Shown in pieces: positions 9,501-61,945 of a DNA stretch of 64,000 nucleotides. Below the pieces are notes generated by a model. It searched no databases. It was not told where the DNA came from and saw only the letters and a program-made list of their open reading frames with translations. The DNA comes from Aphrocallistes beatrix (Eukaryota; Porifera; Hexactinellida; Sceptrulophora; Aphrocallistidae). The stretch is from positions 12,125,524-12,189,523 of the forward strand of contig OY725488.1 of assembly GCA_963281255.1 (NCBI GenBank), read 5' to 3'. The translations under genes and the position numbers were made by a program. How positions within the stretch are numbered: position 1 is the first letter of the stretch; the number at the start of each line of letters is the position of its first letter.

Positions 9501-12500
9501 ATTGAATGATGGCATCAGCATTGAAATTTGAAATGGTTGTTGGAATATTTCAAAGTTTAACTGTAGAATGTCCAGCATTTATATAGTTGCATAGAAAATG
9601 GCTGGGAGACATCCGCGATATCGGGGACACTGTGTCCCCTCTGGGCATTCTACGGTTAATATTGATATCCTGTAGTAATACAAACCATGGATTGGAGAAT
9701 AAACACAAATCAAGAAGTATTTTGTTATTTACCATCTGAATATCATTTTAGGCATAAATCGAGACAGCATAATGCGAGTAGACGAGACAACCAAAGACGT
9801 GATAACAACATGGCCTCTAACAACAGTGAAGGGATGGGCAGCAGCTCCTAGCTCATTCACACTGGACTTCGGAGATTGCCAAGACTCCTTCTACTCAGTA
9901 CAGACCTCAGAAGGAGAGACGATCTCGGAGGTCATCGATGGATACATCAACAACCTCAAGAGGCAAGGCTCTGAGAAATTCGTCTATAATGCTGATGAAG
10001 AGGCTACTTTATTCGAAGATAATATCGCACCTCAGAGAGATACGCCCATGCAACAGATTGATCAGGTAACTCCTATAGTTCCAGTTCCTATTTGATGATT
10101 GACCAATGACCATACTTCTTGAATTGTGTATTCAGCTAAGCCATGTAGAATTGATTGTGAAGAAACTGCCAGGCACAGAAAGCTGATTTTTGGAGTCTTG
10201 GCTACCTTTTTATAATAATAAATTTCTGTTTTTCCACAATAACTCAGCCATTTTAGGTGATAAAATTCTGAAATCTTAATTGAATGTGTATAATAATACA
10301 TCTCAAATACAATGCAATTCTCTTTAAAAAAATGATGACTCATCACCGTGTTATAACATCATCATTACGCATCAAAAATTGAAAAATTGACAAATTTTGT
10401 GATTTTTCGAGTGATATCGATTATAACAGTAAGTCAGACGTATTTAGGGATGTTATCTACCTTATAATTGATCAATATGGGCCTAGGCGCCCAAAGGGCG
10501 CCTTCGGTGGACACAAAGTGTTCGCCAGCCGCACAGCGCGCTTGTGGGTAATTAGAATGTGTAGATTAGGAATTAGAAATTTAAAATAGAGTATTTCTTC
10601 CTGTTTAAGTACACATTCCTTTATGAATAGATCCACTTTATTACTATTTGTATGGAGGTTTCTGTGGTGGTCGAATACTTTTACCTCGCCAATATTCTTA
10701 CGACTTCAAACTTTACATTCAACTTTACATTAGGCACATTTGGTTCCAAGAAGGATTTTACGTTATCCAGTTGGAATCTATCCAACAGTACCGGTGGATA
10801 CTGCCCTGGACTTATAAACAAGTTTCTCTAAGCAAATCCGCTTTTTGGCTATCAACATTGAACGAATTCCACCTATAATATATCTATAATAGTATATGCC
10901 AAGTATAAATAACTGAGAAAATGAATACGTATCTAAATTTGGTGTATTTTACAACCTTGGAATTTCAGGATTTGTGAACTCATTTAAACGCTATTTATAC
11001 TTCTCAGGTTATCGCCAGTTTGAACACAGCCAGTGATCTTCCAGCTTTAGGGCGAGATTCAGGTTCTATAATCTGGAAGCAGGACACCATGGATGTGTCT
11101 AAGCAGAACGTGAACTCTCATCTAGCGGCTATGCTTGGTATGTCCTAGGACATAGCCTTCTAAATACAAGGCCATTTCACTGGTCTTAACCAGGGATAAG
11201 ATAGATATCAGTATTAAGGTAAATATCGAAAAATATGCATTATAGGTCTGCAGAATATATTACAACATACCGTATATAAACATGATATCAAAGTTTCGTT
11301 GTCAAAATTAAGATAAGTCATCATATTATTGCGCAATAGCTATATTTATATTTAAGACAATTACGCTGATTTTCTGACCTGTTTTAAACGTACTTTTAAG
11401 CATTATTAACGAATGATTTTCGCACAGAACCAAGTTTAGGACCAGTTAATACGAAAACTTTAAATTTTCAATGGAATGTTAGTACATTCCAGCAGTATTA
11501 CTATGGAAATCCAAAACAAATTAATATTCTTAATAACAATTAAGTCACAACGATGAAATCAACATACTGAAGTCGAGACTTGATGAAGACTATATTTTCA
11601 TCAAAGTCAAAAACAAAATGAAAGCTGACTCTGGCGAAGTCAGAACTCGATTAAACTGAGTATGGCAATCGCTAATAAAGGAATTTCTGACTAAAGACAA
11701 CTTCAAGATTCTGACAAATGCGGCATCCCCTGTTTAAGCACTTAAGCCTAGGAATGTTGCTTACTCATTTCCTAATAGGTCAATTTAGGCGGGAAAACGA
11801 TATAAATGCGAGAGAGTTACTATAAATAGAAAATGGTCCAAGGCTTTTAATGATTAATTATTTAATGAGGCGCATGTATTAGTTCGAATTTTGGTGTTGC
11901 CATTAGTTCGAATTTTGTGAACTGTCATTAGTTTGAATGGATTTTCAATGTACTGCTGTGTCATTGCTACGAATATATGATCTACGTATTATTTGCTGTT
12001 AACATCAAAGTTAACAAAGTACTTTAGAGGTATTTTCTCATATTTTCAGCAGAAATGCTGCTTTCCTCTCAATTCTTAATATCTCTTCCAAAATGCCACT
12101 CAATGACAGTACATTGAAAATTCATTCGAACTAATGGCAACATCAAAATTCGAATTAATGCGTTCCCGATTTAATGGGCCTCGATTTAATTACTTGCTTA
12201 TATCCATGGTTCACTCCATTGTGTAGCCGCCACATCGTCCGTGCTAACTATGACGAGAGAGGTATCCGAGGTGGATCACACTGCAGTAGAGTCAGCCATC
12301 ACTACCATCACCAGCAACCTGACAGAGCTGAGCAAGAGTGTGCGTATGATAGCACCGCTCCTCAAGTGTGAAGAACAAGATGGAGCCAACCTCCTCAAGG
12401 TAGCTCAGGACTTAGCCAGTGCGACAGGGAAATTCTTGGAACAGGTAGGCTAGTGTTCTACAATGCATTCTTATGCGTATTTACATATTGACTGACGTAA

Positions 12501-15493
12501 TCCGATTTCATCCCCCTCTCTCTTAAATTAGGCTTTAAAGATTTTGTAATGTTTATAGCATCGTCTCATCCCGCAAATTAAGTACTGACAAAGTTTCCGA
12601 AATGATCCCGTCCCGGAAATTAGGCATCTTAACCATAGCCTACTTGATCTATATAGGCTTGGTATCAAACTCAAAATTTTGGACTAGGAATGAAGTAGTG
12701 GATGTAATTATCTTAAATATTAAAACGTTAGGATTTTGTTTGTTTGTGTAAATTGATTGAGGAACCGGGAGGTGCTAGAAACGTGAAATGTGGCACACAG
12801 ATAATTAATAATGAAACTACAAGGGAGTTCGAAGATTTAAGCAAAATCTTTACACCTCGCCGAGATAAGTGACAAATTGTGCTGAACTAAACAAGAAAAG
12901 CAACACATTTTTCCTCTAATATACCCAAGCGCCCACTGGATAACTCAGCGGACACGCACTGTCCGCAAGCAAGCGAACGCGCTTGTTTGAAAATAAAATG
13001 GGGCAATCAAACTTCATTCTAACTCAGGCTCGTCCACCCTTCACCGGGCACCATAAGCCACTTCTAGACACAGCTGAAGATGTGGGAACCAAGGGAGGGA
13101 ATCTCCTGAAACAGGTGGGGGAGAGTGGTGTGGAACCGAGCATCGAAGAGAAGATAATGGCTCTAGCCAAGAAAGTAGGCACAACCACGACTGAATTGAT
13201 TGTTCAGGCCAAGAATGTAGCCACCAGGTGTGATTACGCATCCCTCACTACCATGGTGGTCTCAGGCGTCAAGAACACAGCTAGTGCCACTCATCAACTT
13301 GTCACCTGCACCAAAGTGCTGGTGCCTTGTATCGACAGTCCTCTATGCCAGGTTAATTCATTGCACGGAGATGGTAACTGAATTGTTTGGAGATTACCAT
13401 CTAAAAAATTTGCTAGAAACTAGCTTTCAACGGTTAACATGGGGTTTTCAGGATTATATTTTTATAGATTTTTATATTTTGGGATCTATATGAGAAATCT
13501 ATGAGAAATCAAATCCCCAAAATAGACTAGATTGAGTAACTCCAGGCGCCCACAGGGCGACTCTATGGACACTTTGTGTCCGCAAGCCGCGAAGCGCGTT
13601 TGTCACTGATTATGTTTGAATTCGTACGAATACCTCTAACTAATCATATGACTGATATCATCACGTGATGTAGGAGCAACTGAAAGAAGTTCTCAAGGCT
13701 GTAGCATACTGTGTGGATAAGCTAGTAGAGTTAGCTCAGAAGGGATGCACACAAGATGAAGCAGCTATTGGGTCCCTCAGGAAATTAGCTGGGAGTGTCA
13801 ACATCGCACTGAAGGAGCTCATCGACTTTATCGATCAGGGGATGGGACAAGGAGTGGGACAGTATGGTAAGATGTGTGAGGACATTCTCGCGGCTCATGA
13901 CAACTTCTCCTCATCGATGAGGAATCCTAGGAAGTTGGTAATGCAGGCTCAAGGCATAGCTAAAGCAACCAGCGAACTCATTAAAACTCTCCAGGTAAGC
14001 TGTTTTATTAATAGTTTAATTAATTAGTTTAAATAAAATTAATAAACTAATTAATTAAAGTCATTTATATTTATAGCAAAGGCCCCACACTACTAAGGTT
14101 TCCCCGCCCAAAATGAGTTAGCAAAAACCTAGTGCCATTTAATTAATAAGTCAATGAAATCCATATGTTTCCACTAACATTTATTCCTACAGGCGGACGC
14201 ATCTAAACAGAGCGACACCTCAGTGAGTCAGAGACTTTCAAACGCGGCTAAACAACTGGCTTCTGCCAGGGAAAAGATGGCTGCAGCTGAAAGTGAATCC
14301 GCGCGTAATCTGAAAGATCTCAGCGCTCAAGAAGCACTGAAGAAGGCAACTGAAGACCTCAGAGCCATTACCAACACAGTAGCGTCTCAGGTGAATTGGA
14401 ATTCTGAGTTATTAGCACTTGATAGATTGTGTCACTTTTAAAAGTCACCACTTCTATTTATAGACTTATCATAGTGAACATTAAGCGCTCCTTTAATGCT
14501 CTGGTTTTCTTTGGAGCGGTGAGGGGAAATTATTCAAGGGGATTCCACCATTATAGTGTGCATGATATACCATTCATATGATTAATAATTGTCACCTTTG
14601 CAGTTCATCAAGCGTAAGGTAATCAGGAAGTTGGAAGTGGCCGCTAAACAGACAGCTGCAGTGTGTACTCAATCCATCGCAGCAGCCCTAGGAGCAGAAG
14701 CGAGCAATAGGAATTCGTCCAGGCTGCAGCAGCTGATTTCTAACTGTCAAGTGGTAGCAGATAGCATCGCGTGGCTCGTACAGACAATGAAAGCCACCAT
14801 TTCCGATCCAGAGAGTGCTACTTCGCAACTGGGTACGGATATATTTAGATACAGTCGACTCCGCTTAATAGGGTCACTGTTTGATCGGGCCACTTTTGGC
14901 AGGGCCGAAATAGCTCTCACACATATAAGCTAATACAAAATATTTTCGGTTAATAGTAGGGTTCTCCGCTTAATCGGGGCAAAATGTCCTCTGACCGATG
15001 TGACCCTATTAAGCGGAGTCGACTGTACTTCTATTTATAGACCAGTGCATGGCCTACTTAATAAGTGCAAGCGCGGCCAGCAAACACTTTGTGTTCGTAA
15101 AGTCGCTGAGGATATTAAATTCAGAATCGATAGATTCGAAAATGAGATATTAGGAATCTACGTCCCGATAATCACAGGTCAATAGTTGAAAGCTAGTTTT
15201 AAAGCTAGTTTTTAAAATATTTTTTAACATAATGACCAACTTCATCGCGAATTCGATCCATAGGACTGATCGATGCGAGTCAGGCCATGCTACAGCCAGC
15301 AGGCGAGATGGTAGCAGCAGCTAAGGCAGCAGTTCCCACTATTGCAGAACAGGCAGTAGCCATGCAGTTAGAGAACTTCGCTACGGCCACTGCTAGCGCT
15401 ATAGCAGAGCTGAAGATTGCTGTGGAGAAGGCAGCTGAAGCTTGTGGATCTCTGGAATTAGATTCTACTCTCAATGTGATGAAGGGTCTAGCG
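6527..15493 (+). CDS. tln: Talin, FERM head and N-terminal rod (incomplete 3')
   Basis: Exons: 6527-6934, 8002-8256, 8640-8931, 9752-10065, 11008-11137, 12227-12444, 13028-13351, 13674-13994, 14193-14390, 14604-14832, 15264-15493. Together they give 973 codons without a stop, with matching phases and GT-AG sites. Talin is the cytoplasmic adaptor that activates integrins and links them to actin. Exons 1-4 encode F0-F3, including KYGLNNPEEFSF, LKTYGATFFLVNEKMK and the PTB-like SSFTLDFGDCQDSFYSVQ. Exon 5 is the short head-rod linker (130 nt). Exons 6-11 encode Ala-rich helical rod bundles (about R1-R4, e.g. TITSNLTELSKSV and EKAAEACGSLELDS). In F3 the integrin-contact Trp is kept (VKGWAAAP), but the preceding Arg of vertebrate talin is Gly. 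The ATG has context GCCATGG. Exon 11 ends at a GTGAGG donor, and no continuing talin exon was found for 13 kb. Identification rests on remembered family sequence. Confidence 0.95.
7417..7584. mobile_element. TA-flanked MITE family C, talin intron 1
   Basis: The 168-bp element starts CAGTCAGGGTCGCCTATTAT and ends AAGCGACCCTGACTG, TA on both sides. Other copies: 24057-24230, 25986-26072 (partial), 28895-29063, 41369-41453 (internally deleted) and 63767-63822 (broken). Confidence 0.87.
7734..7905. repeat. GC-rich hairpin repeat, two facing fragments
   Basis: 7734-7776 carries the core GCGCGCTTCGCTTGC followed by GCGCTGCGCGGCTGG and GGCGGACAC. A more diverged copy in reverse follows at about 7830-7905. 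The pair lies inside talin intron 1, in otherwise AT-rich sequence, and creates spurious ORFs on both strands. Confidence 0.7.
8411..8564. mobile_element. TA-flanked MITE family B, talin intron 2
   Basis: The 154-bp element has perfect CAGTCGACTCCGCTTAAT / ATTAAGCGGAGTCGACTG ends, with TA on both sides. The ends are 18-bp perfect inverted repeats, suggesting a recent insertion. Confidence 0.9.
9027..9361. mobile_element. Foldback MITE with very long inverted arms, talin intron 3
   Basis: The 335-bp element has arms of roughly 120 bp: CTGTTGCGAGATATCTTGAG at the left and its near-complement at the right. Both arms include GTTTGGCTTACTCAAATGG and ATTGTGGCACTAAATTGTGG. TA flanks each end. A single strand would fold into a hairpin with an approximately 90-bp loop. 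Confidence 0.87.
9561..9655. mobile_element. TTAA-flanked mini-MITE, talin intron 3
   Basis: The 95-bp element has ends CTGTAGAATG / CATTCTACGG and TTAA on both sides (9557-9560, 9656-9659), as expected for piggyBac-type transposition. It contains the palindrome GGGGACACTGTGTCCCC. A relative in the opposite orientation lies at 33456-33556. Confidence 0.82.
10195..10552 (-). repeat. Long dispersed repeat with GC-rich head, minus orientation
   Basis: The same ~450-490 bp repeat as at 15605-16045 and 27828-28315, here reversed. Order on the minus strand: GC head, ATTAATTATAAGG-like block, ATCGATATCACTCGAAAAATC block, a TGATGAGTCATCATTTTTT-like block, and AAAATGGCTGAGTTAT tail. No ORF or terminal inverted repeat was recognised. 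It lies in talin intron 4. Confidence 0.75.
11868..12168. mobile_element. MITE with iterated subterminal boxes, 8-bp TSD
   Basis: The 301-bp element is flanked by ATTTAATG (11860-11867 and 12169-12176) and ends 58 bp before talin exon 6. Its left arm holds about three copies of a CATTAGTTCGAATTTT-like box and its right arm about two in inverse orientation. The terminal sequence GGCGCATGTATTAG relates it to 60297-61131 and 61856-61945. Confidence 0.8.
13545..13600. repeat. GC-rich hairpin repeat fragment
   Basis: The fragment carries GGCGCCCACAGGGCG, then GGACACTTTGTGTCC (a perfect hairpin arm pair) and GCGAAGCGCG. It lies in talin intron 7, 74 bp before exon 8. A shorter fragment lies at 12947-12985. 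Confidence 0.7.
14852..15025. mobile_element. TA-flanked MITE family B, talin intron 10
   Basis: The 174-bp element has perfect CAGTCGACTCCGCTTAAT / ATTAAGCGGAGTCGACTG ends with TA on both sides. It starts 19 bp past the exon 10 donor. It shares the internal TTTTGGCAGG and CTCTCACACATA blocks with the copy at 8411. Confidence 0.9.
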
Positions 15494-15604
15494 GTGAGGA
15501 GATGCGATTGTTTGTTTGAAAATTTGTTTGTTTGAATTTAAAAGTGTTTATTCTAACATAACTCGCTCCGAAGTGGTCAAAAATTATTGCGAAATTATTT
15601 AATT

Positions 15605-16045
15605 TACAAGCACGCTTCACTTGCTTGCGCTGCGCGGCTGGTGGACACTTTGTATCCGCCAGAGGCGCATGGGGTCACATTGATTAATTATAACGGAAAT
15701 AACATCCCTAAATACGTATGTCCTGCTGTTATAATCGATATCGCACGAAAAGTCACCAAATTTGATGCGTAGTGATGACGTCATAACATAGTGATGAGTC
15801 ATCATTTTTTGATGATAGTTGTATCATATGTGAGATATATTAATATACACATTCTATTAAAATTTCAGCCTTCTATTATCTATCACCTAAAATGGCTGAG
15901 TTATAGTCGAAAAGCTGAAATTTCTAATTATAAAAAGGTGACAATGACGTCATAATTCCATGATAAGTCGACATTTTCATCTGATCCCACTCCCACATGC
16001 TAAAAATCAGGTTTCTGTGTCGGGCAGTTTATTCAATCAATTCGT
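15605..16045 (+). repeat. Long dispersed repeat with GC-rich head
   Basis: It begins with a diverged head (CACTTGCTTGCGCTGCGCGG, then TGGACACTTTG) and continues through GATTAATTATAACGG, ATCGATATCGCACGAAAA, the palindrome TGACGTCA twice, GAGTCATCATTTTTTGATG and AAAATGGCTGAGTTAT. It matches 27828-28315 almost end to end. No coding potential or tRNA-like promoter boxes seen. Confidence 0.78.
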
Positions 16046-16217
16046 TACCGTAAACTGGGGTGACTTTGTCCCACAGTAGCAATTTTAATAAAATATGCTC
16101 AAACTTTAAAGATTGCGATTTAAATGTCTTGGATATATTGAGAGTGTCATTAAACATATTAGCAATGTAATTACATTGATTCATAAGTTTGAGTATATTT
16201 TATTAAAACTAGCGCGC

Positions 16218-16419
16218 TTCGCTTGCTCCAGATTCTGACCTTTTCGCGTAAGACGGCCACTGCAACTGTTCGTGTTCTGTCAATACAAGATATTAATGAT
16301 AACGCACCCCAGACATATCCATCCTACATTTTCGAGATATCTGAAAATGCCGTCGTAAATTCATTCGTTGGATCTATCTCAGCTGTTGATATCGACCCAA
16401 ATCCACGAATAATCTAGCT
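16218..16419 (+). pseudogene. Isolated cadherin-repeat fragment
   Basis: The reading frame contains VRVLSIQDINDNAP followed by YIFEISENAVV and ISAVDIDPNP. This is the calcium-binding DxNDNxP linker ending one cadherin repeat and the start of the next (ENA and DxD positions). It enters after a CTCCAG possible acceptor, abutting a GC-rich repeat scrap (16211-16228), and ends at a stop after 64 codons with no donor. No other cadherin exon was seen nearby. A captured exon fragment or pseudogene is most likely. Confidence 0.7.
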
Positions 16420-18386: not shown

Positions 18387-21300
18387 TTAGTCATCGCATA
18401 CAATCTTGATAGAACATTGTTCAGCTGACTGTTCGAGGAGTTCCAGCTGTTCAGGATCAGGACTCGAAAGTTCGGACTTGGATAGTCGCAGTATTTTGAT
18501 GTGTGGAGGTGTCAAGATGAGATATTTGAGAGGGAGACACGAGTTGGAACTGAGCTCGCAGCGTTGTATCCATAAATACCTAATGGCTGGATGATAATTC
18601 AGACTGTGACACAGTACCAACATTCCAGAATCTTGTAATGGAGTGTAGCGGAGTCTCATGTAGACGAGTGACTTCATAACTGTTAAAGCTCTGTACCAGC
18701 AACTCATATCATCAGGTGTGAAATTGCAATCGAACAGTTGTAACGATATCAAGTTGGAACAAATTGAAACTAAATCTAAACAACTATACCAGCTGTCAAA
18801 CCCAATTCTGTTTAAAGCGAGCAAGCTGATCTCTCTCAGTGAAGTGGCATTTTCAGAGATTAGTCGTGAGATGGAGTCTGGGTAGGATGGATTAGGAGAT
18901 GGGTAGGAAGCAGAGGTTAGACGGAGGTATGTGATGGAACTGAGTCGATGCAAGTATTGCAATGCTTCGTAGCAATCTTGTTTCGTATCCCAATGCAACT
19001 CTTTCAGCGAGGAGAGCGCTGATAGGCTGTCAGCTGTCACTGGGAGGAAACCGTGGAAGTCCCAAATGTACAGTCCATTGAGCGGACTGTCTGATATTAA
19101 TTGGTGAATGAGCGACCAATCGGAATCATTCGACTTGGGCATATAGTACAAATTGTGTAATGACCTGAATTGATTGGTCAAGTTCGCTAGCATTGAATGC
19201 TTCATTGGAGATTCATATAACTCCAAACTTCCACTGAATTGGTTGGTGGAAGGAAACAGCAGCTGAGAATCGTTACAAGCTGTCAGATCACACGATACGA
19301 AATCAATGCTAATTCTGGTGCTAGCAGGTAGAGTTGCAGAGGAGAGCGGACCAGTGAAGGAAAGGATCGATTCAAAATCTTTCTCAACAAAAGCGAGTGC
19401 TAAGTAATCCAGAAGGCAAGAGGAGAGTGCTGGGAGCAGAGAATTGAACTGTGTCGATAGAATAAAACTGGTATTGATAGATATGACATTAAATTCATTA
19501 ACAAATCGCAATGACTGTATGAAACAATGCCATTCATTTGGTGACACAGTGAATTCGAAATCCAAGTAGACAGGATAAGAAAACTGTTTCTTAAAATAGG
19601 CGAAATGTTCACAAATAGAATCACAATTCATTTCGCTAATTAGAGTGGATAATAATAGGAATGATTGTGTGAATTCAGTCCAGCCTGAAACATCAACAAG
19701 TTCAGTGGAATAACCCAGCTTATAAATCATCGGAACTTCGGAGAGAGACAGTGGTTTAGGGATTACATGTCGACAGAGAATGGGTGTGATGCGACCTGCG
19801 TTCTGTCTCAAGATGCCACTCACAAACCGAATCGCCATCTTGTAGATGGACAGGTACTGGACACTGGAACTTATGTAGCGGACAATGAAGCACTGCTTTG
19901 TCCACGAGTTGGCGCAGATGGACAGAGCGGTCATGAACTCTTGGATGGTGAGGTGCTGAAATGTCCACACCTTCACACGATGGCCGAAACCAACCACTTT
20001 GATATGCGCATGCATCAGACCCAGTCGTTCGCTGCACAATATTTCATCTCCGATCTTCAAAGGAATGTTCTTATCGGAAGTGAGGTCTCGGTCGAAAAGG
20101 CCCTGATTCGCTTCCTTCCCAATGGCACGAATGCACTTCCTGATCCCGGGATGGAACTTGGACAGTTCGCGGACGTCACTGTGCTCATCAAGACCCATCC
20201 GGGACAACTGGCGACGAATGATGTACACGACCAGCTGTGTGTAGATGTGGGAAAGGGTGGTAGTGAGGATGGAATCGGAGTTGTTGAACAGAGAAGTGAA
20301 CAAACTAGCATTCACTGGGACCAGTGCGAGTTGTTCGATTTCCTCGTGGCGGTAAAACATCTTAAAAACGGCGTTCAGTTTGTCTACGGTTGCCATTCGC
20401 TTACCAAAGTAGAGGTCTCGGTTTTCTGGAGAGAAACCGAGGACCTGGAAATTGTCGCTAATCTTGAATTGGGAGCCGTGGCTGAAACTCAGGTCGGACC
20501 AAGCACTCGGACGGCTTGTCACCAAAATGGTGCTAAACGTGAGGAAACGCCTCTCCAGGATTTTACAAAGCAGCGTCGTTTCAAATGGAACATTCCTCGT
20601 GAACTCATCCACGCCGTCGAGGATAATGAAAAGGCCGTCTCCATCGGATCTTAGCAGGTGTTGAGTCAGGGATTTGGTCCATTTGGCTCCAAATGACATG
20701 GAAAGTGCCAGCCAACTGACAATGAACTCCTCGTCGACTGGGTTTCCCGCTTCGTGTCTCGCTTCTTCCAGTTTGTGCCACTCTTTGCTACGACAAGGAA
20801 TAGAAAGGGCGTAGCTGAAGTTGGTCAGGGAGTGGGTACCGTATAAATAGGCGAAGTGCTTGCAGAGAAAACTCTTCCCACTACCGGGGTTGCCGATCAA
20901 GCACCAGATGGAATTCTCGCTACTCGGACTCGTAGTGACGATTGACTCAAAGTCTACTACTTCTACGGTTTGGAGGTGAACTCTGTTATGGATATTTCTT
21001 AGGAAGTCGATTTCATTAATTCCGCTTTCCTCTTTCACTCTCTCTTCGGCTGGCTTCACCTTAATCACAGTGAGAGGTGTGTAGACGGATTCGATCGGGA
21101 CACTGCCTTCGTCAAGGACGACGTTTACGTCTTTGTTGTGCGTTTTCATGTAACGTTTCAGGCAGTATTTCAAATCAACATTATGTACATCAGTGTCTAG
21201 TCCTAATGCATCGCTGATTTCCTCCTGAAAACTTTCCTTGGACATTTTCTGGAATATGGGTGTATAACGGCGAACTTTATCAGCTAAATCGCTTCTTTTC

Positions 21301-21788
21301 AAAATGCTGAGGGACTCAGATAGGTCGTTCATGTCGCTTGTGATAATTTTGTTGTCAACGCACAGCTTTAACATTTCCTTTGCGGCTTCGTTGCCCGTTA
21401 CACTCACTTTAGGATTACTGGTGGTTAGAATTTCCCATTGGCATGATGACATTTCGGAGGTTAACAATTCGACGAGGGATTTCACGGATTTTGGTTCCTC
21501 AGTGGTTGTCAATTGTTTGCGTCGTGGCGTGCTTAACCATTCTAATTGTCTAGCAGTTAGCAGTAACGTTTGGTCGCCCATCATTTCTAACGCATTGTCC
21601 AATCGATTCGGGTCGAACTGTTTCCAGTTCTTCAACGTGTTAATGAACAGCATCGGTTTACTTCGGATGTTTTCCCTCATTCGAGAGGGAATTTCCATTG
21701 CGTTTTCTAGTTTGTGTATTATGTCTGGCGTCAGTAAATCGTTGAGTTTGGTTAACGCACTCATCTGATGCTTTCCTTCTTCAGTCAT
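18387..21788 (-). CDS. NACHT-domain NLR-type receptor with C-terminal LRR-like region
   Basis: An uninterrupted 1133-codon ORF. Residues about 1-95 and 100-215 look like two helical death-fold-type segments (KLNDLLTPDIIHKLENAM; SLVELLTSEMSSCQWEIL), followed by a conserved-looking bridge with PIESVYTPLTVI (231-242). The NACHT NTPase has Walker A GNPGSGKS (299-306), Walker B LFIILDGVDEF (386-396) and a TSRPSAW sensor (424-430). The region after about 870 has LRR-like spacing (LKELHW, LISLQLFDCNFT, IKILRLSKSEL). NACHT proteins are cytosolic pattern sensors that oligomerise on activation. The start has context CAAAATGA. Just 3' of the TAA, CATTGAAG|GTAAGT (donor at about 18373) resembles a strong splice donor, so a 3' UTR intron or alternative C terminus is possible. 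Intron-free coding and the N-terminal type resemble sponge NLRs known to me. The gene lies opposite in strand to the talin exons on either side. Confidence 0.93.
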   Translation of the reverse strand: MTEEGKHQMSALTKLNDLLTPDIIHKLENAMEIPSRMRENIRSKPMLFINTLKNWKQFDPNRLDNALEMMGDQTLLLTARQLEWLSTPRRKQLTTTEEPKSVKSLVELLTSEMSSCQWEILTTSNPKVSVTGNEAAKEMLKLCVDNKIITSDMNDLSESLSILKRSDLADKVRRYTPIFQKMSKESFQEEISDALGLDTDVHNVDLKYCLKRYMKTHNKDVNVVLDEGSVPIESVYTPLTVIKVKPAEERVKEESGINEIDFLRNIHNRVHLQTVEVVDFESIVTTSPSSENSIWCLIGNPGSGKSFLCKHFAYLYGTHSLTNFSYALSIPCRSKEWHKLEEARHEAGNPVDEEFIVSWLALSMSFGAKWTKSLTQHLLRSDGDGLFIILDGVDEFTRNVPFETTLLCKILERRFLTFSTILVTSRPSAWSDLSFSHGSQFKISDNFQVLGFSPENRDLYFGKRMATVDKLNAVFKMFYRHEEIEQLALVPVNASLFTSLFNNSDSILTTTLSHIYTQLVVYIIRRQLSRMGLDEHSDVRELSKFHPGIRKCIRAIGKEANQGLFDRDLTSDKNIPLKIGDEILCSERLGLMHAHIKVVGFGHRVKVWTFQHLTIQEFMTALSICANSWTKQCFIVRYISSSVQYLSIYKMAIRFVSGILRQNAGRITPILCRHVIPKPLSLSEVPMIYKLGYSTELVDVSGWTEFTQSFLLLSTLISEMNCDSICEHFAYFKKQFSYPVYLDFEFTVSPNEWHCFIQSLRFVNEFNVISINTSFILSTQFNSLLPALSSCLLDYLALAFVEKDFESILSFTGPLSSATLPASTRISIDFVSCDLTACNDSQLLFPSTNQFSGSLELYESPMKHSMLANLTNQFRSLHNLYYMPKSNDSDWSLIHQLISDSPLNGLYIWDFHGFLPVTADSLSALSSLKELHWDTKQDCYEALQYLHRLSSITYLRLTSASYPSPNPSYPDSISRLISENATSLREISLLALNRIGFDSWYSCLDLVSICSNLISLQLFDCNFTPDDMSCWYRALTVMKSLVYMRLRYTPLQDSGMLVLCHSLNYHPAIRYLWIQRCELSSNSCLPLKYLILTPPHIKILRLSKSELSSPDPEQLELLEQSAEQCSIKIVCDD

Positions 21789-23041
21789 TTTGGTCTATGA
21801 AAAAGGACTCAATAAATCCAGGCTGGGATTTGGTCAGGTTTTGTTTTAGGTTGAGGACTTGTTGCAATTCTGCTTAACTGTGGTGTCAATCAAGGGCAGA
21901 TTTCTTATGAAAATATCCAAATTTTATGTTATATAGTTAAAACTAAAAAAATTCGGTCGAGACTGTGAGTGCAGTTCTATCAATGACTCGTCGGACACGG
22001 AAATGTGATATTTGAAATATACATAATGAATACCATATAGTAATCAAAGAGATCTCGCTTGATTAATTTATTTACATTATAGAGTATTTCTATAATTGCG
22101 TTTTAAAATCTTTTTTCATCTCAATAAATCAGATTTCAAATTTAGGGTGAAATCATGGGAATGCCTAATTTCCGGGATGGGAATTTTTTGCCATAGCGAG
22201 TTCAACTTTACCCCTCAAAATCTTTCAAAGAATCCGCCACGGGTATCAACCAAAAAACTATGAACTTGACCACCAAAAACTATTTCGTGGTCTAACTCCC
22301 AAAAATCGTGGTGTAATATTTATGTCAAGATTAAGCTACACTTCAAGAAAACGAATAAATTTGATACAGTATTTAATAGTAAGAATGAGGCATCACTTAC
22401 TTGAAAATGTTAATTGATAGTTAGAACGTGTGAGATAGCTGATCAATGATGATAAGCTGAATCTATAAATAGAAACAATTCACAAAATTATAATCAGACA
22501 GAATATGGTAGAAGTATTTGTGTAGAATGAGATGAGAATATTTGAAGGAGTTCAAATTGTATTATTCACACTTTCAATGCAACCTCTATTATTAAAGTTG
22601 CATTGTAGATTAGACAAACAGTGATACTAAAATAAAGTGAATAAATTCTATTTTGAAACAAGTTCAATGGAGCATCTAGAATTGTGAAGTTGAACCAGCA
22701 AAAATAATGACGCACTCCGTTCATTGCACTCTTTTCGATTAGTATTATTATGTACAGTGATAGGTCAATCATTATAGACACATTATTCAGTCAAATAGCA
22801 TATCCACTATCTACAAGTGTGGAACGATTATTGGTAATATCATTATCGAGGTTAATTGTGTGAAGTACTTTTATATTAAAAGTACCTACTATTATTCCTC
22901 ACTTAGTTGCAATCTCACTTCTAGAGGTACATTTGTATGTAAGTGACATAATTGTCTCGGAAACAAGCATTTATATTCAAATCTTCACTCACAGAGACCC
23001 AATAGTGGAAGTTGAGATATTTTAATGTATTTAAGTAAATA

Positions 23042-37495: not shown

Positions 37496-37936
37496 GTTAC
37501 ATGAAAAAATGCCCCCCCCATGAAAAAATGCCCCCACCATGGATATTCATGTAATATGGGGGGGGGGCAAAATTTAATGGAGTTAGCGTGAAAAATTGCC
37601 CCCCCGTGAAAAAATGCCCCCACCATGGATATTCTAAAGTATGCCAATGCTTATACAAAACATTTTGAATGCTATTTGGCTTCTATTCGTTTACTAAAGC
37701 ATTGCAAATCAACAAACTAGTCGTGTGAAGTAATAACAATGACTTTCATAAATGTATCGTATATAAATAGTATCAGCAATATTTAGTGTTAAACTCAAGA
37801 ATATCCATGGTGGGGGCATTTTTTCACGGGGGGGCAATTTTTCACGCTAACTCCATTAAATTTTGCCCCCCCCATATTACATGAATATCCATGGTGGGGG
37901 CATTTTTTCACGGGGGGGGCATTTTTTCATGCAACA
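37496..37936. mobile_element. Foldback element with G/C-run arms
   Basis: Inverted arms each carry two ATGAAAAAATGCCCCC-type boxes and ACCATGGATATTC. GCACT occurs just outside both ends (37491-37495, 37937-37941), possibly a 5-bp duplication. The centre (about 37630-37800) also occurs inverted at 53700-53906, so it is a dispersed family. Confidence 0.75.
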
Positions 37937-53626: not shown

Positions 53627-53699
53627 TTGATTAAATTTACTATCTCATCAACTCTGTCAAATGCTAACTATGTGGGTTTATACGTAGTTTAATCTGTGG

Positions 53700-54231: not shown

Positions 54232-54358
54232 TTATATAATTTTTCATTATTTTTATGATCATCGATATTAAAAAAACAATAAATAATTATCTCAATAATA
54301 TTTACAATCTAATGCTGGCCCGATATGATGTGTTGCTCGGTTCCGCCTCGTTAGGGAG

Positions 54359-54586: not shown

Positions 54587-55044
54587 TAAGTTATTTGCTT
54601 TCTATTATTATTTTAATTATATAAGTAGACATTATAACTTCTGAGATTCGGAATCTGCATAACCAATTAACAAATACAATTGTTTAAATCTTACGTAAAC
54701 AAAATTAGTTTAGAAAATTAGCATAGATCTCCTAATTATATAAAGTTCCAGGCGTCACTAGATTCGAATCATTATTTCTCATTTTGCTTTAGAGGCATAG
54801 TATTGTATAATAAATTTGCAATCGCGTTAATTTCCTATTGTATTATTCTCGTCATATATGATAAATAAACATTTTTCAGAGAAAGTATGAAAAGTTTGTT
54901 ATTCAAATTATTTTGTCGAGATCATTTGATTGCTTTTCAGGTTTCCAATACTAACCAAACTCTAATAAATTCGACCAAACTAACAAACTTAAGATTGAGT
55001 TACAATAAATAGAGATGCGCTTTGGATATTTTTCTTTAGATTGG

Positions 55045-55308
55045 TCAGCCGCGTGCCATTGGTGAAACAGCTTCTTTATGATCGCTGTTACTGACAACCA
55101 CTGTTGGTGAGGATGGTCCCACTGTGGGTGTGATTGATGAAAGAGGAGCAGAAGTTCCGTCAAGTTGAGTAGTGACTTCGCTGCTTCTAATTTGCGCACT
55201 CAGACGTGCATTCTCAGCTCGAAGTTCGCGGTTTTCTCTCAGAACTTCCGCGATAGCAGCTCCAGTATTGCGTTCCATCTGAGCGAACTTGTCTGCAAGC
55301 GTCGACAA
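55045..55308 (-). pseudogene. Coiled-coil ORF family, copy 3 (reversed)
   Basis: The minus strand reads LADKFAQMERNTGAAIAE, ENRELRAENARLSAQI and SSEVTTQLDGTSAPL, with over 85% identity by eye to copy 1 in this part. The first third is interrupted by unrelated sequence near 55310. Three copies in two orientations within 6.5 kb. Confidence 0.55.
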
Positions 55309-55399
55309 TCCTGATTCGGTAGAGCTTCCAACTTAGTGATTGATGCCTTCAGCCAGCGTATTCCGACTCACGAGCAAGGCTAATCGCGACACCTGTGCC

Positions 55400-55585
55400 A
55401 CAAACTGTCTATAGTTGCTGGAGGACAGTGGGAGGATGGGAAATGGCCTGGGACTGGTGGGACTTAGAGATGAGAGAGAGAAGAGAGAGTTGTATATATG
55501 TAAATAGTTAGTATGTAGTGTCAAACTGTACCGATATGTCAATTATTTATTCAAACACAAGTTAGTTTACACAATTTTCATAATA
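55400..55585. repeat. Duplicated non-coding block, copy 2
   Basis: Match to 51547-51710 (TTGCTGGAGGACAGTGGGA ... CACAATTTTCATAA). 55586-56140 has no gene I can support. Confidence 0.65.
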
Positions 55586-56142
55586 GGGACATGCCTAGCT
55601 TATACAATTGGGGGACTCTTGTTTATACAATAGGATTATAGTCTAGAATATAGTCTATGTATTGCTTCCCAATTATAACAAATACTTGTAATTAGAGGAA
55701 TCTCTAGAGTGGAAACCATAGGTAATTGGATCTGATTGATATATAATTGCAAGTGAAAATAAGTAATGATCAGTTCTGAAATAGTCTACGATAATCACAA
55801 CGCTTCTAATTTCGCAATTATCACCGTAGCCAAATCAAGCATTGGATCCAGTATTTGGGGAATTGATAACATAATCTTGCATTGTAAGCCTGTACAAGCA
55901 ATAATATTCCAACTATTCTTGTATGGTTGAAATGATAGCTTGAAGTTGGCTGAAGTAAGTGAGAATGATATCTTAATAAATATTGTTCACTTAAGTGTAG
56001 GTAAAAAAATAAATAGTTATCGATCATCAATGTTCTTAGAAAGTATTGAAACCCCAAAATGGGACTTTTAAAACCTAATTGATGACCAAAAAGTCATTGA
56101 ATAAATCAAAGGAATTATTACAGGCCGTATACGGTTAAGGGC

Positions 56143-56348
56143 AAGATTATTCACTTAGAACTGAGATGTGAATGAGGTTTAACACAGAAAATTTGGATTT
56201 TTCCATGGAATGTCACTACATTCCAGTGTTGCAATGGAGACGTTTTTTGGCCAGTTGGGGTCATATCTTGAAAACTGCAAGAGCTAGACATTCAAATATA
56301 TCTTCCAAATTTTCTGTGTTAATTAAAACCCATTCACATCTCAGTTCT
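56143..56348. mobile_element. AGATTATTC-type foldback MITE, copy 1 (right end clipped)
   Basis: Starts AAGATTATTCACTTAGAAC, with AACACAGAAAATTTGGA / TCCAAATTTTCTGTGTTAA arms. The right terminus is lost after CAGTTCT. It is nearly identical to 59694-59910. Confidence 0.75.
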
Positions 56349-56482
56349 CATCTGAAATTCTTTAAAAAATACCAAAAGTTTTAATTATTTATTAAAACTA
56401 TTAGAAACGAGAGTGTTCGGTTGAAATTTATTTGCTTGCTATTCCGTATAAAATATTTATTTTTTATATATATTTTATCTAG

Positions 56483-56650
56483 AAACCGTTTATTGAGAGG
56501 GAGACGGGAGAAGTGTTGGGAGTGTTGGAGGCGGCGGCGGCGGCGACCCTAGCGGCGGCGGAGAAGGCAGAAGTAGCGGTGGGGTTTGGGGCGGGGGCGG
56601 AAGAGGGGGCAGAAGAGGAGGAGGAGGAGGGGAAGAATGCGAGTTTTTAA
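56483..56650 (+). pseudogene. Gly-rich ORF, copy 1, frame disrupted
   Basis: A TTTTATCTAG acceptor leads into RLLRGRREK, which stops; one base over, a Gly-rich frame runs GGGEGRSSGGVWGGGGRGG to GEECEFLIF and stop. The counterpart at 62631-62871 is open throughout, so this copy is frameshifted. At least 300 bp of 3' flank is shared with it (to about 57000). Confidence 0.5.
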
Positions 56651-57081
56651 TCTTCTAAGTTAAGCAATAAATTTGATATTTTTACTGCAACTCCTAGTAT
56701 AGTAGATGTCATGATCAATATGGAACGTCGTCGTACTTCACTCGTTATTGGAAATTATATTGAACTAATTTGGACCAATTTGGGCCATATATTCCTTATG
56801 TGGTGCAGATTAGCTAGCACCATGTGTTAATTTTCAAAATTTAATAAACATAGTCAAATTACCGGACCTTCAAACTTTTGAAAACAATTCTCAGCCTCCA
56901 TATAGATATTCGTAAAATCTATACGTAAGATATACGGATCATTTTTATAAAAACATTACAAAGGCCACCTTGTAAGTTCAATTCTAAATATCTAGTTCTA
57001 ATTTGTTGACTAATTCATTGAAATATGACGAAGAATTATGAATTATTCAATTAAAGAATTATTCAAAATCTCAAACATTAG

Positions 57082-57275
57082 TGCATATTCTAAATGGAAG
57101 TTGGCGAATAACTGCTAGCATATTATTAGTATACAAACGTTTTCGACGAGTGATTGAGATGCGTAAAGAATCTAATCGTCTAAATATATCCATGACGTAT
57201 TAAAATGATCTAAATAGAAGTTGGCGAATAACTACTATAGAATATGAATATATATTCTACAAACGTTTTCAAAAA
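57082..57275. repeat. Short tandem direct duplication
   Basis: AGTTGGCGAATAACT and CAAACGTTTTC recur in the same order in 57082-57150 and 57206-57275. No coding potential. Confidence 0.6.
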
Positions 57276-57413
57276 ACAAACTACTGTTGGAACAAGAACA
57301 AAATAAATTCGAAATATCCCACGGAATAAGAAATAAGAAATATTGAAACTAATGGCAGAAAAATCCAAACCCCCCGGGCGATAAACATTTCCTCTGAAGA
57401 AATAAACTCCTTA

Positions 57414-57845
57414 GTGGATTTAATTATAGAGAAAAAATCCCAACTGTTTATCAGTTTGAGTGCTTCCTTCACTCTCGAAGATAAGAATACAATTTGGGAT
57501 GAAGTCGCGTCTGGATTGTCAGCACTTCATGGCACATCAAGGAATCGAGACGATGTTCTCAAAAAGTGGTCCAACCTCCTGAGCAAGCATAAACCACTAA
57601 TTGCCGATAAGATTGCTTCGATGAAAAAAACTGGCGGAGGTCCCCTTGGAAGTGAGCTAACTCCACTGGAGGAGAAAATCCAAAATATCAAAGGGAAACA
57701 ATTATTTGAGGGCATCGCTTCTAGGGTAGACATAACGATAGAACCTACTCACTCCCAAGTACCACCCCTCAAGCTGAATATCCGTTATCTAATGAATTTG
57801 AGAGTTCCTTTGATGATGAAGATACTACAGATGAATTCAATTTAG
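57414..57845 (+). pseudogene. Myb/SANT-like transposon-associated DNA-binding domain
   Basis: The frame carries TIWDEVASGLSALHGTSRN, VLKKWSNLLSKHKPLIADK and KKTGGGPLGSELTPLEE. W-x-x-(v)...KW..L and kTGGGP are the signature of the trihelix/Myb-like domain of Harbinger-associated and NAIF1-like proteins. The C-terminal part soon loses frame. It directly precedes the piggyBac remnant; whether they were one element is unknown. Confidence 0.6.
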
Positions 57846-57932
57846 ATGATGAAGAAGCATATTTAGAGTCTCCAATATCTCCTAACTCTGGTGCTTTTTT
57901 GATGGATCGAACAGTATTCTACATTCGATTCA

Positions 57933-58650
57933 ATGGACACAAATACTACCAATAAGCGGGCAGAAAACTCGTGTATCTCACTGAAATCCAAGCGTCTTAG
58001 ATTCTTATATAATCCAAACTCAAAACAATCGAAATTGTTTACGAAATATTTGACAGGTTCTTTTCCCATCTCGTTCTCGCAGTGTACTTGCGATGCCAGA
58101 CAAACAGGTATGGTTGGTACATCAAATAACATTACTCTTCCTCCTGATCTCAATTATTTAGTTGAAAATAAGCATCCACTCACTTGGGCATTCAAATAGT
58201 TCATTCTTGATGCCAAATTCACCTACCTTCATGATGGAATCGTGGAACATCTCACTGCAAAAGAACCGGTTTCTATCACTGTGTGGAACGACAATAAATA
58301 CCGTGGCGAGGATAAGAAGGTTAATTTTCTAAATAATTGCATATCAAATATTCCATCTTCTAGGGAACAGTCCCAAGAAAAGAACATCCGAAACTCGTCG
58401 AAGATCAACACGAAACAACAAATCCCTAGCCTTCCACTACTCAAGGCATATAACAAGATGGGCGGAGTTGATAGACAGTATAGGATGGTTGGACAACACT
58501 CCATCCCATTGACATCCAAGCATGGTTATATTAAGATATTCTTCCACCTCTTGGATTCAGCGGTTGTGAATGCCCATATACTCTACAAGATATCAAAGAG
58601 GGCAAAGGGATTGTGGAATCAGCAGCACAACAAAAACACACCCTAGCATG
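57933..58650 (+). pseudogene. piggyBac-type transposase, C-terminal half
   Basis: Two frames separated by a stop at 58197-58199: TCDARQTGMVGTSNNITLPP, then PVSITVWNDNKYRGEDKKV and LLKAYNKMGGVDRQYRMVG, IFFHLLDSAVVNAHILYK. The YNKMGGVD motif holds the last catalytic Asp of piggyBac-type DDE transposases, followed by the expected helix. The upstream catalytic region is missing, so it is dead. A foldback element sits 37 bp downstream. Confidence 0.75.
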
Positions 58651-58687
58651 GTTCAAAGAAAGCATCTTTCTGTCATACTTTATTATA

Positions 58688-59059
58688 GGGATACAGACAA
58701 TTCGTGACATTACAATTCGTGACATTACAATTCGTGACATTACAATTCGTGACATACAATTCGTGACATTACAATTCGTGACATTACAATTCGTGACATT
58801 ACAATTCGTGACATACAATTCGTGACATTACAATTCGTGACATTACAATTCGTGACATTGCTATTCGTGACTATTCAACATAGAATTGATGAATTCAATG
58901 TTAGAATGTGAGAATGAATTTCTCTCTCGGGAAGTAATTCTTTTAGTTGTCATTGTCTCTCATCTTTAATTAATCAATAAACTAGTTGAATGAAACACTT
59001 TAATCTCAACTAATGATTGTTTACACGACTACAAGAATGTCACGAATTGTCTGTATCCC
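58688..59059. mobile_element. Foldback element with internal 15-bp minisatellite, 9-bp TSD
   Basis: Ends GGGATACAGACAATTCGTGA / TCACGAATTGTCTGTATCCC, with TTTATTATA on both sides (58679-58687 and 59060-59068). On the left, ACAATTCGTGACATT is tandemly repeated about 11 times, every fourth unit 1 bp shorter (59-bp higher-order period). The right arm holds a single copy. The 9-bp duplication suggests a Mutator-like source. Confidence 0.88.
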
Positions 59060-59530
59060 TTTATTATACGCAAAAGTATGGATTACGAGTGTTTACAAAT
59101 AGGCTAACCTGACGAGTCTTAGTTCTCTATGTTTACTTTACTATAACCGATTTGACAATTTTTAAATGAATCAATTAGAAAATTGATTGAATATTATCGT
59201 AATACTCGCATGTGATCTATGTAGGATTCTGAAATATCTAATATATTCAGTTTGAATTCAAAATATAATTAGTATCACATTACGTTCAATGCTTCGGTTA
59301 GTATTTTAATCCATTTACATATTTCGTTCACATTCCTCATTCCTCATTTATTGCTTTAGCATTTCAGAACAACTGAAATCAATGGATCGATAAATAAATA
59401 AACCATAATTTGTTGAGATTCAAATATCACAATATCTAGCAAAAATAAATAACAATAATAAAACATTCCTACTCAAATATTATCTACATTTTTATTATAT
59501 TTTATTTATTTATTATTTATTTTATTATTT

Positions 59531-59689
59531 ATGGGTTGTTGCTTCAGTCGCAAACAGTTTGTGGAAGGCAGAAGACTGTTGCCACCTGATGGGATTCCAG
59601 AGGCCAGATATGTATGTACTAAATGTTCTAACACATTTCCCTCTTCCCCTATTATGATATTTCATTATTGTTATGATCATAGATATTAA
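59531..59689 (+). CDS. MGCC-type lipidation-motif C2H2 zinc finger, copy 2
   Basis: The ORF gives 52 residues. MGCCFSRKQF is an excellent N-myristoylation plus Cys palmitoylation signal. The second half is a C2H2 pattern with canonical spacing: C29-x2-C32-x12-H45-x4-H50. Predicted: a small membrane-anchored zinc protein. Copy 1 (54085) shares MGCCFSR, EGRRLLPPDGIPEARY and the Cys pair; third-position differences are few, so the duplication is recent. About 150 bp upstream is also conserved. No homologous family recognised. Confidence 0.55.
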   Translation: MGCCFSRKQFVEGRRLLPPDGIPEARYVCTKCSNTFPSSPIMIFHYCYDHRY

Positions 59690-59693
59690 GGGC

Positions 59694-59910
59694 AAGATTA
59701 TTCACTTAGAACTGAGATGTGAATGAGGTTTAACACAGAAAATTTGGATTTTTCCATGGAATGTCATTACATTCCAGTGTTGCAATGGAGACGTTTTTTG
59801 GTCAGTTGGGGTCATATCTTGAAAACTGCAAGAGCTAGACATTCAAATATATCTTCCAAATTTTCTGTGTTAATTAACCCATTCACATCTCAGTTCTAAG
59901 CGAATAATCT
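59694..59910. mobile_element. AGATTATTC-type foldback MITE, copy 2 (complete)
   Basis: AAGATTATTCACTTAGAACT at the left and AGTTCTAAGCGAATAATCT at the right form the ends. It begins 5 bp after the stop of the MGCC ORF. No clear target duplication. Confidence 0.8.
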
Positions 59911-60170
59911 CATAATAAAAACAGTTAGAAGTGCCCTTATTAAACGGCCTAGAAATCACTACATTTGTCAAAATATAACCACAATTATATGGTGACTAAT
60001 CGCAATTTTAACAATGGATATTGGTACTTTGATTCCATATTTATATATGCTTGTAGTGCATTCCAAAGCTTTATTGTGCTTTGTAAATGATTTAAGGCAA
60101 CTAATGTATTAGTTCGACCGACTACCGCATCCCTAGTCCCAAATCCGCGAGTTACTGTGAAGCCTGTTTC

Positions 60171-60296
60171 GTGATATTTTGAGTCACGTGATATTCTGAG
60201 TCATTAGTATTAGTGAACCATGGATATTCCACTAGCGTGATATTTTGAATCATTAGTATTACTAAACCAGGGATATTTAACTACCGTGATATTATG
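60171..60296. repeat. Short tandem block (TGATATTNTGAGTCA type)
   Basis: CGTGATATT(T/C)TGAGTCA and ATTAGTATTA(G/C)T recur two to three times just before the foldback element, with one copy likely split by it (ATATTATGAGTC continues at 61132). 59911-60170 has nothing recognisable. Confidence 0.6.
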
Positions 60297-61131
60297 GGGG
60301 TGCATGCATTTGTCAGAATTTTGAAGCTGTCACTTGTCAGAATTATCCTAGTTGTCACTTGTCAGAATGGTTTTTAGGACTGCTGTCACTTGTCAGAATG
60401 GTTTTTAGGACTGCTGTCACTTGTCAGAATGGTTTTTAGGACTGCTGTCACTTGTCAGAATGGTTTTTAAGACTGCTGTCACTTGTCAGAATGGTTTTTA
60501 GGACTGCTGTCACTTGTCAGAATGGTTTTTAAGACTGCTGTCATTTGTCAGAATGGTTTTTAGGACTGCTGTCACTTGTCAGAATGGTTTTTAAGACTGC
60601 TGTCACTTGTCAGAATGGTTTTTAGGACTGCTGTCACTTGTCAGAATGGTTTTTAAGACTGCTGCCATTTGTCAGAATGGTTTTTAGGACTGCTGTCACT
60701 TGTCAGAATGGTTTTTAAGGAATGGCGGATGTTTCGTCACTGATATTTCTTTGAATGCAATTAAAGAATCACTACTTTCATTCTCCCATTCATTCTACCA
60801 AATAATAAATGACAATCACCCACCCTCACGAAATAAAAAAACCACTCTCGCGTGCCACTTTATATAAAAACCATTCTGACAAGTGACAGCAGTCCTAAAA
60901 ACCATTCTGACAAGTGACAGCAGTCCTAAAAACCATTCTGACAAGTGACAGCAGTCCTAAAAACCATTCTGACAAGTGACAGCATTCTTAAAAACCATTC
61001 TGACAAGTGACAGCATTCTTAAAAAACCATTCTGACAAGTGACAGCAGTCCTAAAAAACATTCTGACAAGTGACAACTAGGAAAATTCTGACAAGTGACA
61101 GCTTCAAAATTCTGACAAATGCAACTCCCCC
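60297..61131. mobile_element. Foldback element with facing 31-bp minisatellites, 8-bp TSD
   Basis: The 835-bp element is flanked by ATATTATG (60289-60296 and 61132-61139). Left end GGGGTGCATGCATTTGTCAG, right end with inverse TTTGTCAGAATTTTGAAGC. The left arm has about 12 tandem 31-bp units (TGTCACTTGTCAGAATGG + TTTTTAGGACTGC); the right arm has about 6 inverted units. TTAGGAC and TTAAGAC variants alternate over much of the left array, and a TCATTTG variant recurs 124 bp apart. The 140-bp centre is unrelated. No ORF. Confidence 0.88.
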
Positions 61132-61855
61132 ATATTATGAGTCAAAACGATTAGCTAATACAAAGGTTGGCAACCGCAACAATGACTCTGTTAAAAGTAA
61201 GTAATCGAGTATGACAATAACAAATATTTACTTACAAGTACATTACGATATCTTTTACGTAGTTTACTGATGACATACATGAACAGATATTTAACTTATC
61301 TATATAAATTGAATTTAAATATAATTTTAATCTTTAATATTCAATCAATTCCACTTTACTGACAACATACTACATACAAATGGAACAGAAAGAATTTCTA
61401 AACTTGGTAAATTACGAACCTGTAACATCAATGATCAACAGTTCTACTTCAACTTATGGAATGAAGTTAAATATAGATATTAGAGATAACAACTAAACAT
61501 TTAGAATTATATAGAAACTGTATTTGGCTCTTACATTTGATAATATAGATTAGAAAAATATTGAGTAATCTAATATGTATTTAATGAACTGTATTTGTAA
61601 TAATCGGATGTGTAATAAAAGTTATATTCTGTTAAAAATACTCTTCAATTTCAAATGTTTAATTCCTTTATAAATGTACAATTGTGCCTCCAAGGAAATG
61701 CTAAGCAGTGGAATCGTATTCTATAGACACGTGGGCCCTGGTTCATCGGCTTCAAACAGCCCAGCACGCCAAATGTGAGTGCCTTCAGATTTACATAGCA
61801 TACTTGTAAAATCCAAATAATTGATGTAATATTTGCATGATAAGAAGATACGGGG

Positions 61856-61945
61856 CGCATGCATTAGTCCGAATTTTGAAGTATGCATTTGTCCGAATTT
61901 TGAAGTATGCATTGGTCCGAATTTGTAGTATGCATTTGTTCGACT
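61856..61945. mobile_element. Partial element with 24-bp iterated boxes
   Basis: GGGGCGCATGCATTAGTCCG starts the same terminus as 60297-61131 and 11868-12168. The unit GCATTAGTCCGAATTTTGAA (24 bp with GTAT) repeats about four times with decay. The other end is not found. 61140-61850 and 61946-62580 hold no gene I can support. Confidence 0.65.

Follow-up and report, generated by a model that had tools for sequence, protein, structure and literature searches.

The three repetitive pieces at 11868, 60297 and 61852 of the window, by which we mean the whole 64,000-nucleotide stretch of the Aphrocallistes beatrix genome analyzed here (C1:12125524-12189523), belong to one transposable element family in the wide sense, that of the foldback-type Mutator-like elements (MULEs), and they fall into three subfamilies of it, each with its own box motif. 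Across the family, each end carries between 2 and about 35 tandem copies of the box. We find it quite probable that the window pieces are non-autonomous or truncated foldback MULEs whose arrays are putative transposase-binding sites that drift in number through slippage or unequal exchange. The initial annotation of this DNA had proposed a family forming an ordered series from MITE to minisatellite-bearing foldback; the family stands in the wide sense given above, but the ordered series is not supported.

RESULTS

Three subfamilies in the window

All three pieces were present in the window on re-examination. The first (11868-12168, plus strand, 301 bp) is a short non-autonomous copy with the box core TTAGTTCGA. 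It had been described as carrying two to three boxes per arm, and three boxes were located on the plus strand (11877, 11901 and 11926) and two on the minus strand (12136 and 12160); its right terminus is decayed. The target duplication ATTTAATG flanks it at 11860-11867 and 12169-12176, as the annotation had it, and is an exact 8-bp match provided that the terminal G at 11867 is counted as target. A search of the genome (100.5 Mb, 28 contigs) listed 157 matches to this element. At about 11670-11730 on the minus strand lies the lone 3' arm of a related element, with the box CATTTGTCAGAAT and the terminus GGGGATGCCGCATTTGT, which is 84% identical over 61 bp to the transposase locus L100 and was absent from the initial annotation.

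The second element (60297-61131, 835 bp) is flanked by the exact 8-bp duplication ATATTATG at 60289-60296 and 61132-61139, again as claimed earlier. Its 5' arm (60297-60711, plus strand) consists of the terminus and 14 boxes with the core CTTGTCAGA, and its 3' arm (60865-61131, minus strand) of 9 facing boxes and the terminus GGGGGAGTTGCATTTGT, with box spacings of 24, 25 and then mostly 31 bp. The previous count of about 12 and 6 facing units is right if the two outermost boxes of each arm are left out of it, while the higher-order structure reported with it is weak and amounts to a partial alternation of two unit variants. The middle (60712-60864, plus strand) has at least 48 genome matches, and among those listed four, the window copy included, are 100% identical over all 153 bp. 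As a single strand, the element folds with a z score of -45.6, and none of 20 shuffled sequences folded as well. Immediately upstream, at 60187-60293, a 49-bp unit is repeated 2.2 times; a 49-bp array upstream of the transposase-bearing copy L029 (471-589) resembles it by appearance.

The third piece (61852-61954, plus strand) has four boxes with the core TTWGTCCGA at a spacing of 23-24 bp. The four boxes had been recognized correctly, with a start placed 4 bases too late at 61856, since the GGGG begins at 61852. Because the stretch 61860-61954 is a 94% match to boxes that lie within another copy, the piece is probably a truncated 5' arm; a 3' end and a target duplication were sought in the rest of the window, and neither was found.

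The window holds other arrays and genes. Facing 16- to 18-bp arrays of ATCGTAATATTCTGAGAT and its inverse at 9037-9082 and 9305-9355 look like another small foldback element, and facing 18- to 19-bp units of GTGAAAAAATGCCCCC and its inverse at 37500-37621 and 37812-37846 form another foldback-like pair. At 58697-58871, the 15-bp unit ACAATTCGTGACATT is repeated 11.8 times; the start of the transposase locus L077 is flanked by 15-bp arrays with the similar motif GTCACGAA, and the window array may therefore represent another foldback family. A 1,135-amino-acid (aa) open reading frame (ORF) with a NACHT domain occupies 18387-21794 on the minus strand, and lectin-like ORFs were seen by eye; gene content of this kind points to an animal.

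Shared termini and target duplications

A genome search with the 20-bp terminus had been suggested as a check on the claim that the three pieces share a terminus and tandem copies of their own boxes, and it bore this claim out. The 5' terminus GGGGYGCATGCATTWGT, with at most two mismatches, gave 495 genome matches against 8 for the reversed pattern (places were listed for the first 100 matches), and the ends of subfamily B, to which the 60297 element belongs, gave 117 matches against none in the control. The 3' terminus is different from, but related to, the 5' terminus and reads as GGGGGAGTTGCATTTGT, GGGGAAGCTGCATTTGT or GGGGACGCTGCATTAGT.

Among 23 paired copies, the target duplication was an exact 8 bp in 16, an exact 9 bp in 2 and 8 bp with one mismatch in 3; that of L010 was imperfect at about 7 bp, and L025 had none. 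This count excludes an ambiguous pair (L014), the window's 11868 copy (L001) and four transposase-bearing copies (L055, L056, L057 and L060). As a control, crossed flank pairs matched in 0 of 506 cases. These copies thus show the 8- to 10-bp duplications that mark MULEs, and their ends are the long, internally repetitive inverted repeats of variable length that mark foldback elements. The three box motifs differ in sequence, which would be expected of unrelated satellites that happen to look alike, but we give this reading practically no chance, as it is refuted by the shared termini (495 against 8), the target duplications and the transposase-bearing copies of the same architecture.

Arm plan and array turnover

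In ten subfamily-B copies, the boxes are spaced at 24, 25 and then multiples of 31 bp in 15 of the 20 arms; L020 departs from this in both arms, L016 and L026 do so in the 5' arm and L025 in the 3' arm. Boxes were also counted across copies, another check that had been proposed, and the 5' arms of these ten have 4 to 14 of them and the 3' arms 7 to 34. The same start of 24, 25 and 31 bp is found in at least one arm each of L055, L056, L060, L007, L009, L021, L023 and L032; L057 has a spacing of 25 bp throughout, and L010, L024 and L034 deviate.

Arm lengths were measured on 22 of the listed 153-bp middles, and 13 of the 14 copies whose middle is 99-100% identical to that of the window copy had both ends. 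In these 13 copies, the 5' arms range from 105 to 601 bp and the 3' arms from 175 to 392 bp, and the steps between them, taken from coordinates alone and relative to the shortest common arm, are whole 31-bp units to within 0.1 in 10 of 13 cases for the 5' arm and 12 of 13 for the 3' arm. In the four copies whose middle is 100% identical, the 5' arm measures 105, 119, 229 and 415 bp. Arm length differs 4- to 10-fold at no or about one difference per 153 bp; the box number changes faster than the sequence, and it does so by units. Within an arm, the likeness between units is 0.89-0.90, compared to 0.88 for the units of other copies, and we rejected a strong homogenization of units within a copy since this excess is small. 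The innermost unit can be recognized as a junction variant in most arms (7 of 10 on the 5' side, 8 of 10 on the 3' side), and units are therefore gained and lost inside the array.

This turnover bears on whether the arrays do anything for the element. The boxes may have been transposase sites at first and the long arrays passive products of slippage that hitchhike and confer nothing, which is what large and independent length variation among near-identical copies would look like; the lengths of the two arms are uncorrelated (n = 20 copies, rho = -0.34, P = 0.14). The copy L037, which has two boxes per arm, has an exact target duplication, so many boxes are dispensable. However, arms below a certain length are missing from subfamily B, with no 5' arm shorter than 91 bp in 22 copies and no 3' arm shorter than 175 bp in 20, and long arrays recur across many lineages with unrelated spacers. 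Taken with the conservation of the box core reported below, we regard passive arrays as a real possibility that nonetheless falls somewhat short of being probable.

Transposase-bearing copies

The search for an autonomous partner with the same ends, which the annotation had called for, was successful, in that transposase-bearing copies with the same kind of ends were found. The MULE domain (PF10551) had 121 matches in the genome, and a protein search listed 109 matches. One MULE-domain match lies about 1 kb inside the terminus of the copy L055 (the same element as L027; contig C3, 2,730 bp), which has both termini, 11 boxes in the 5' arm and 3 in the 3' arm and shows no target duplication; its RING region is in a different frame from the transposase. 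The copy L060 (C7, 2,478 bp) has termini and the exact duplication CTCGGCAC, and its transposase match contains stops. L056, L057 and L029 each have termini, boxes and transposase; no target duplication was found for L056, and that of L057 is a 7-bp match only, if shifted by one base.

A box array or boxed terminus lies upstream of the ORF in 25 of the 33 transposase loci examined. Among the remainder, the array is on the opposite side of the transposase in L063 and L064, L077 has its 15-bp array of another motif, and the stretches examined of L059, L075, L078, L082 and L089 contained no box array, L059 having a degenerate terminus and box. At both L100 and L106, a short 10-bp array of GTTTTGTCCA lies about 590-800 bases before the FLYWCH start.

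The window elements can be linked to such copies to different degrees. At L103 (C19), an arm that shares 94% identity with the 60297 element over 164 bp is followed by a FLYWCH N terminus, with the reading frame interrupted further on, and judging from this alignment the locus is a transposase-bearing relic of the same subfamily. The non-coding copy L021, which is 895 bp long and has an exact duplication, can be aligned both to L056 (90% over 487 bp) and to L055 (85% over 428 bp) and is therefore a deletion derivative of the transposase-bearing form. The 11868 element is connected to L055-type transposases by the box core and a weak similarity of 74% over 77 bp. L106, where its best match lies, was rejected as its partner since that match is a neighboring MITE. 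L104 was rejected as the partner of the piece at 61852, with which it has the 9-bp core TTTGTCCGA in common and nothing more, and it does not appear among the top six DNA matches to that piece. A Merlin-type transposase (IS1595 type, PF12762) came into consideration through the GG ends and the 8-bp duplications, and it has 20 matches in the genome, several with open frames among L039 to L053; it was rejected as the source, as these termini flank none of the 15 loci that were fetched.

The ordered series from MITE to minisatellite is not supported by these copies. Transposase-bearing copies already have long arrays, those of L083 and L092 reaching about 28-36 units, and copies that are nearly identical differ widely in array length without an established direction. 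The piece at 61852 looks like a truncated arm instead of an intermediate stage, and the three pieces belong to separate subfamilies.

A putative FLYWCH-MULE-RING protein

At two related loci, intact single ORFs, of 545 aa (C1:9739896-9741530) and 535 aa (C9:2278346-2279950), each lie between two facing arrays of their own motif. Both the MULE and RING domains score above the Pfam cutoffs in both ORFs (PF10551 at 29.1 bits in the 545-aa ORF and 38.8 in the 535-aa ORF, with 39.7 in L055, against a cutoff of 27.6). FLYWCH matches scored 20.8 and 21.5 bits (E values of 4e-4 and 3e-4), the 545-aa ORF included, which is below the Pfam cutoff of 23.6, and the Pfam search did not list FLYWCH for the 535-aa ORF; the C...C...H.H pattern is visible in most of 16 aligned FLYWCH domains. 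A MULE domain with a FLYWCH zinc finger at the N terminus characterizes the Phantom family in the sense of PMC6446971 and PMC3169594, for which these elements are thus candidates. Of the 12 loci from L055 to L066, to which this tally applies, 8 have a RING-finger match behind the transposase, later loci mostly stopping too soon. This is an unusual transposase architecture, and a text search of the literature, in the parts of papers that it covered, returned no description of FLYWCH-MULE-RING besides a single ring-finger table entry for a Phytophthora MULE.

Box cores and FLYWCH domains

With units excised by whole-unit alignment, the 13-bp core was off-consensus at 1.3, 0.3, 0.45, 0, 1.4 and 1.3% of sites in subfamilies B, A, G, R, M and Q, respectively, compared to 4.9, 6.2, 7.5, 4.7, 7.5 and 7.7% for the spacer. 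The core is thus less variable than the spacer in all six subfamilies, 4 to 20 times so in five and invariant in the sixth (27 units), which argues against arrays that are passive throughout; the units are not independent, and the comparison is therefore given without a P value. When the core was shifted circularly around the unit, its true position ranked 1/31, 3/31, 2/32, 7/31, 4/31 and 9/26 in the same order of subfamilies. Only in B did the true position come out best, since the spacer is itself conserved in parts.

The distance between FLYWCH domains correlates with the distance between boxes (Mantel rho = 0.55 over 16 lineages, with 0 of 5,000 permutations as high, the 9-bp box cores being read by eye), also without two outgroups (14 lineages, rho = 0.49, P = 0.0008), a correlation that shared descent alone would also give. 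A residue-to-base code suggested by nine lineages, in which Ser in the strand KYxxXK goes with A at box position 7, was rejected. Seven of eight newly fetched loci had a box, and five agreed, the agreement of L106 being doubtful since its array belongs to the neighboring MITE; the other two contradicted the rule (L104, Ser with C; L105, Phe with A).

DISCUSSION

The window pieces are in our reading the non-coding or broken members of a family whose autonomous form would encode a single protein that begins with a FLYWCH-type zinc finger at its N terminus, continues with a MULE (DDE) catalytic domain and ends in a RING finger at its C terminus. The arms mostly follow a common plan, in which the terminus is succeeded, as a rule, by two fixed boxes at 24-25 bp and then by a variable run of 31-bp boxes. 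It is plausible that the boxes bind the element's own transposase, the core being the putative site read by its FLYWCH domain, and the low variability of the core and the correlation of box and FLYWCH distances lend this indirect support. Several bound copies per arm could raise specificity or affinity and help the two ends to pair, and 31 bp, at about three helical turns, would set the boxes on one face of the DNA. The number of boxes would then drift by slippage or unequal exchange inside the array, with a small number kept, and the inverted arms, given how strongly the single strand folds (z of -45.6), may help arrays to change in length.

The boxes could instead serve mainly to attract the element's own protein so that chromatin is opened or the transposase gene is driven, and not to build a transposition complex, in the manner of the VANDAL/VANC system. 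The position of the arrays between the terminus and the transposase ORF would suit this, from one lineage to another several box motifs change jointly, as is reported for the targets of VANC (PMC5735166), and a RING finger in the protein could ubiquitinate partners. However, arrays are also present in the 3' arm and in non-coding copies and face inward from each end, which fits end recognition, and there was no separate VANC-like ORF in the loci read. We therefore regard an anti-silencing or transcriptional role as unlikely. We would also put little weight on a more ambitious proposal, that of a specificity series in which a dozen or more MULE lineages have re-coded the motif that their FLYWCH domain reads, with every box in both arms rewritten each time, and in which the arrays are landing platforms that concentrate a RING (ubiquitin-ligase type) transposase on its own copies, where it may remove host silencing or repair proteins and pair the ends. 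Recognition of the ends by the transposase, with arrays that drift in number, remains our preferred explanation.

Elements of this kind are already known, namely, Tm1, Muta/Phantom, Galileo and VANDAL/VANC, and the comparisons that follow draw on portions of the papers cited. Three things are new here: how many lineages with different boxes a single genome contains, how cleanly array turnover could be measured among copies that are nearly identical, and the presence of a RING finger in the transposase. One close system is Tm1 of root-knot nematodes, a Phantom-like MULE with foldback ends (PMC3169594), which shares the MULE transposase with a FLYWCH domain (a putative one in our elements), composite inverted repeats of tandem motifs with variable length, asymmetric outer motifs, MITE-like copies and 8- to 10-bp target duplications (PMC3169594). 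It differs in that the Tm1 motif is 13-15 bp long, with one per family and mostly 9-bp duplications (PMC3169594), whereas here the units are 31 bp and many lineages with different motifs occur in one genome, and no RING finger is mentioned for Tm1 in the portion of that report used here (PMC3169594). Muta1 and other Muta families of Aedes aegypti are placed in the Phantom family (PMC5225508, PMC6446971). Muta1, which is active in yeast and has a FLYWCH domain, likewise has 8- or 9-bp duplications (PMC5225508, PMC6446971), and its long inverted repeats contain a 12-bp subterminal repeat in 9 copies, a number that varies among derivatives (PMC5225508). In contrast to our elements, Muta units are 9-15 bp, and the protein has 504 aa, with the RING finger unmentioned in the sections consulted (PMC5225508).

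A ring finger of the C3HC4 type appears in a survey table of MULEs for one Phytophthora element, 37_Pi, and the same table records minisatellites next to the transposase ORF for aphid Phantom and Rehavkus (PMC6446971). The ring finger of 37_Pi is in an oomycete element of the SWIM group (PMC6446971), whereas here MULE and RING are joined with a putative FLYWCH domain in one ORF between facing arrays. VANDAL21 of Arabidopsis resembles our elements in that an element-encoded protein, VANC, has a short target motif in tandem repeats, the motif copies diverge together, and protein and target coevolve (PMC5735166). VANC is, however, a separate anti-silencing protein and not the transposase, and its target repeats are in non-coding regions, introns included, and not in facing arrays at the ends (PMC5735166).

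Galileo and Drosophila Foldback share the long, internally repetitive arms, with repeat numbers that differ between the two arms of a copy (PMC3688188, PMC3573991). Galileo has a transposase of the P-element type with a THAP domain, and its repeats are about 210 bp in the F subfamily (PMC3688188, PMC3573991), unlike those described here. In Galileo, the THAP domain binds repeats inside the long arms, and electrophoretic mobility shift assays (EMSA) showed that the tandem repeats contain transposase-binding sites (PMC3688188). According to the same paper, such binding was untested for the tandem repeats of Foldback and Phantom (PMC3688188). Many lineages in the present genome have a box and a FLYWCH domain of their own, and this question is therefore directly testable by cross-binding.
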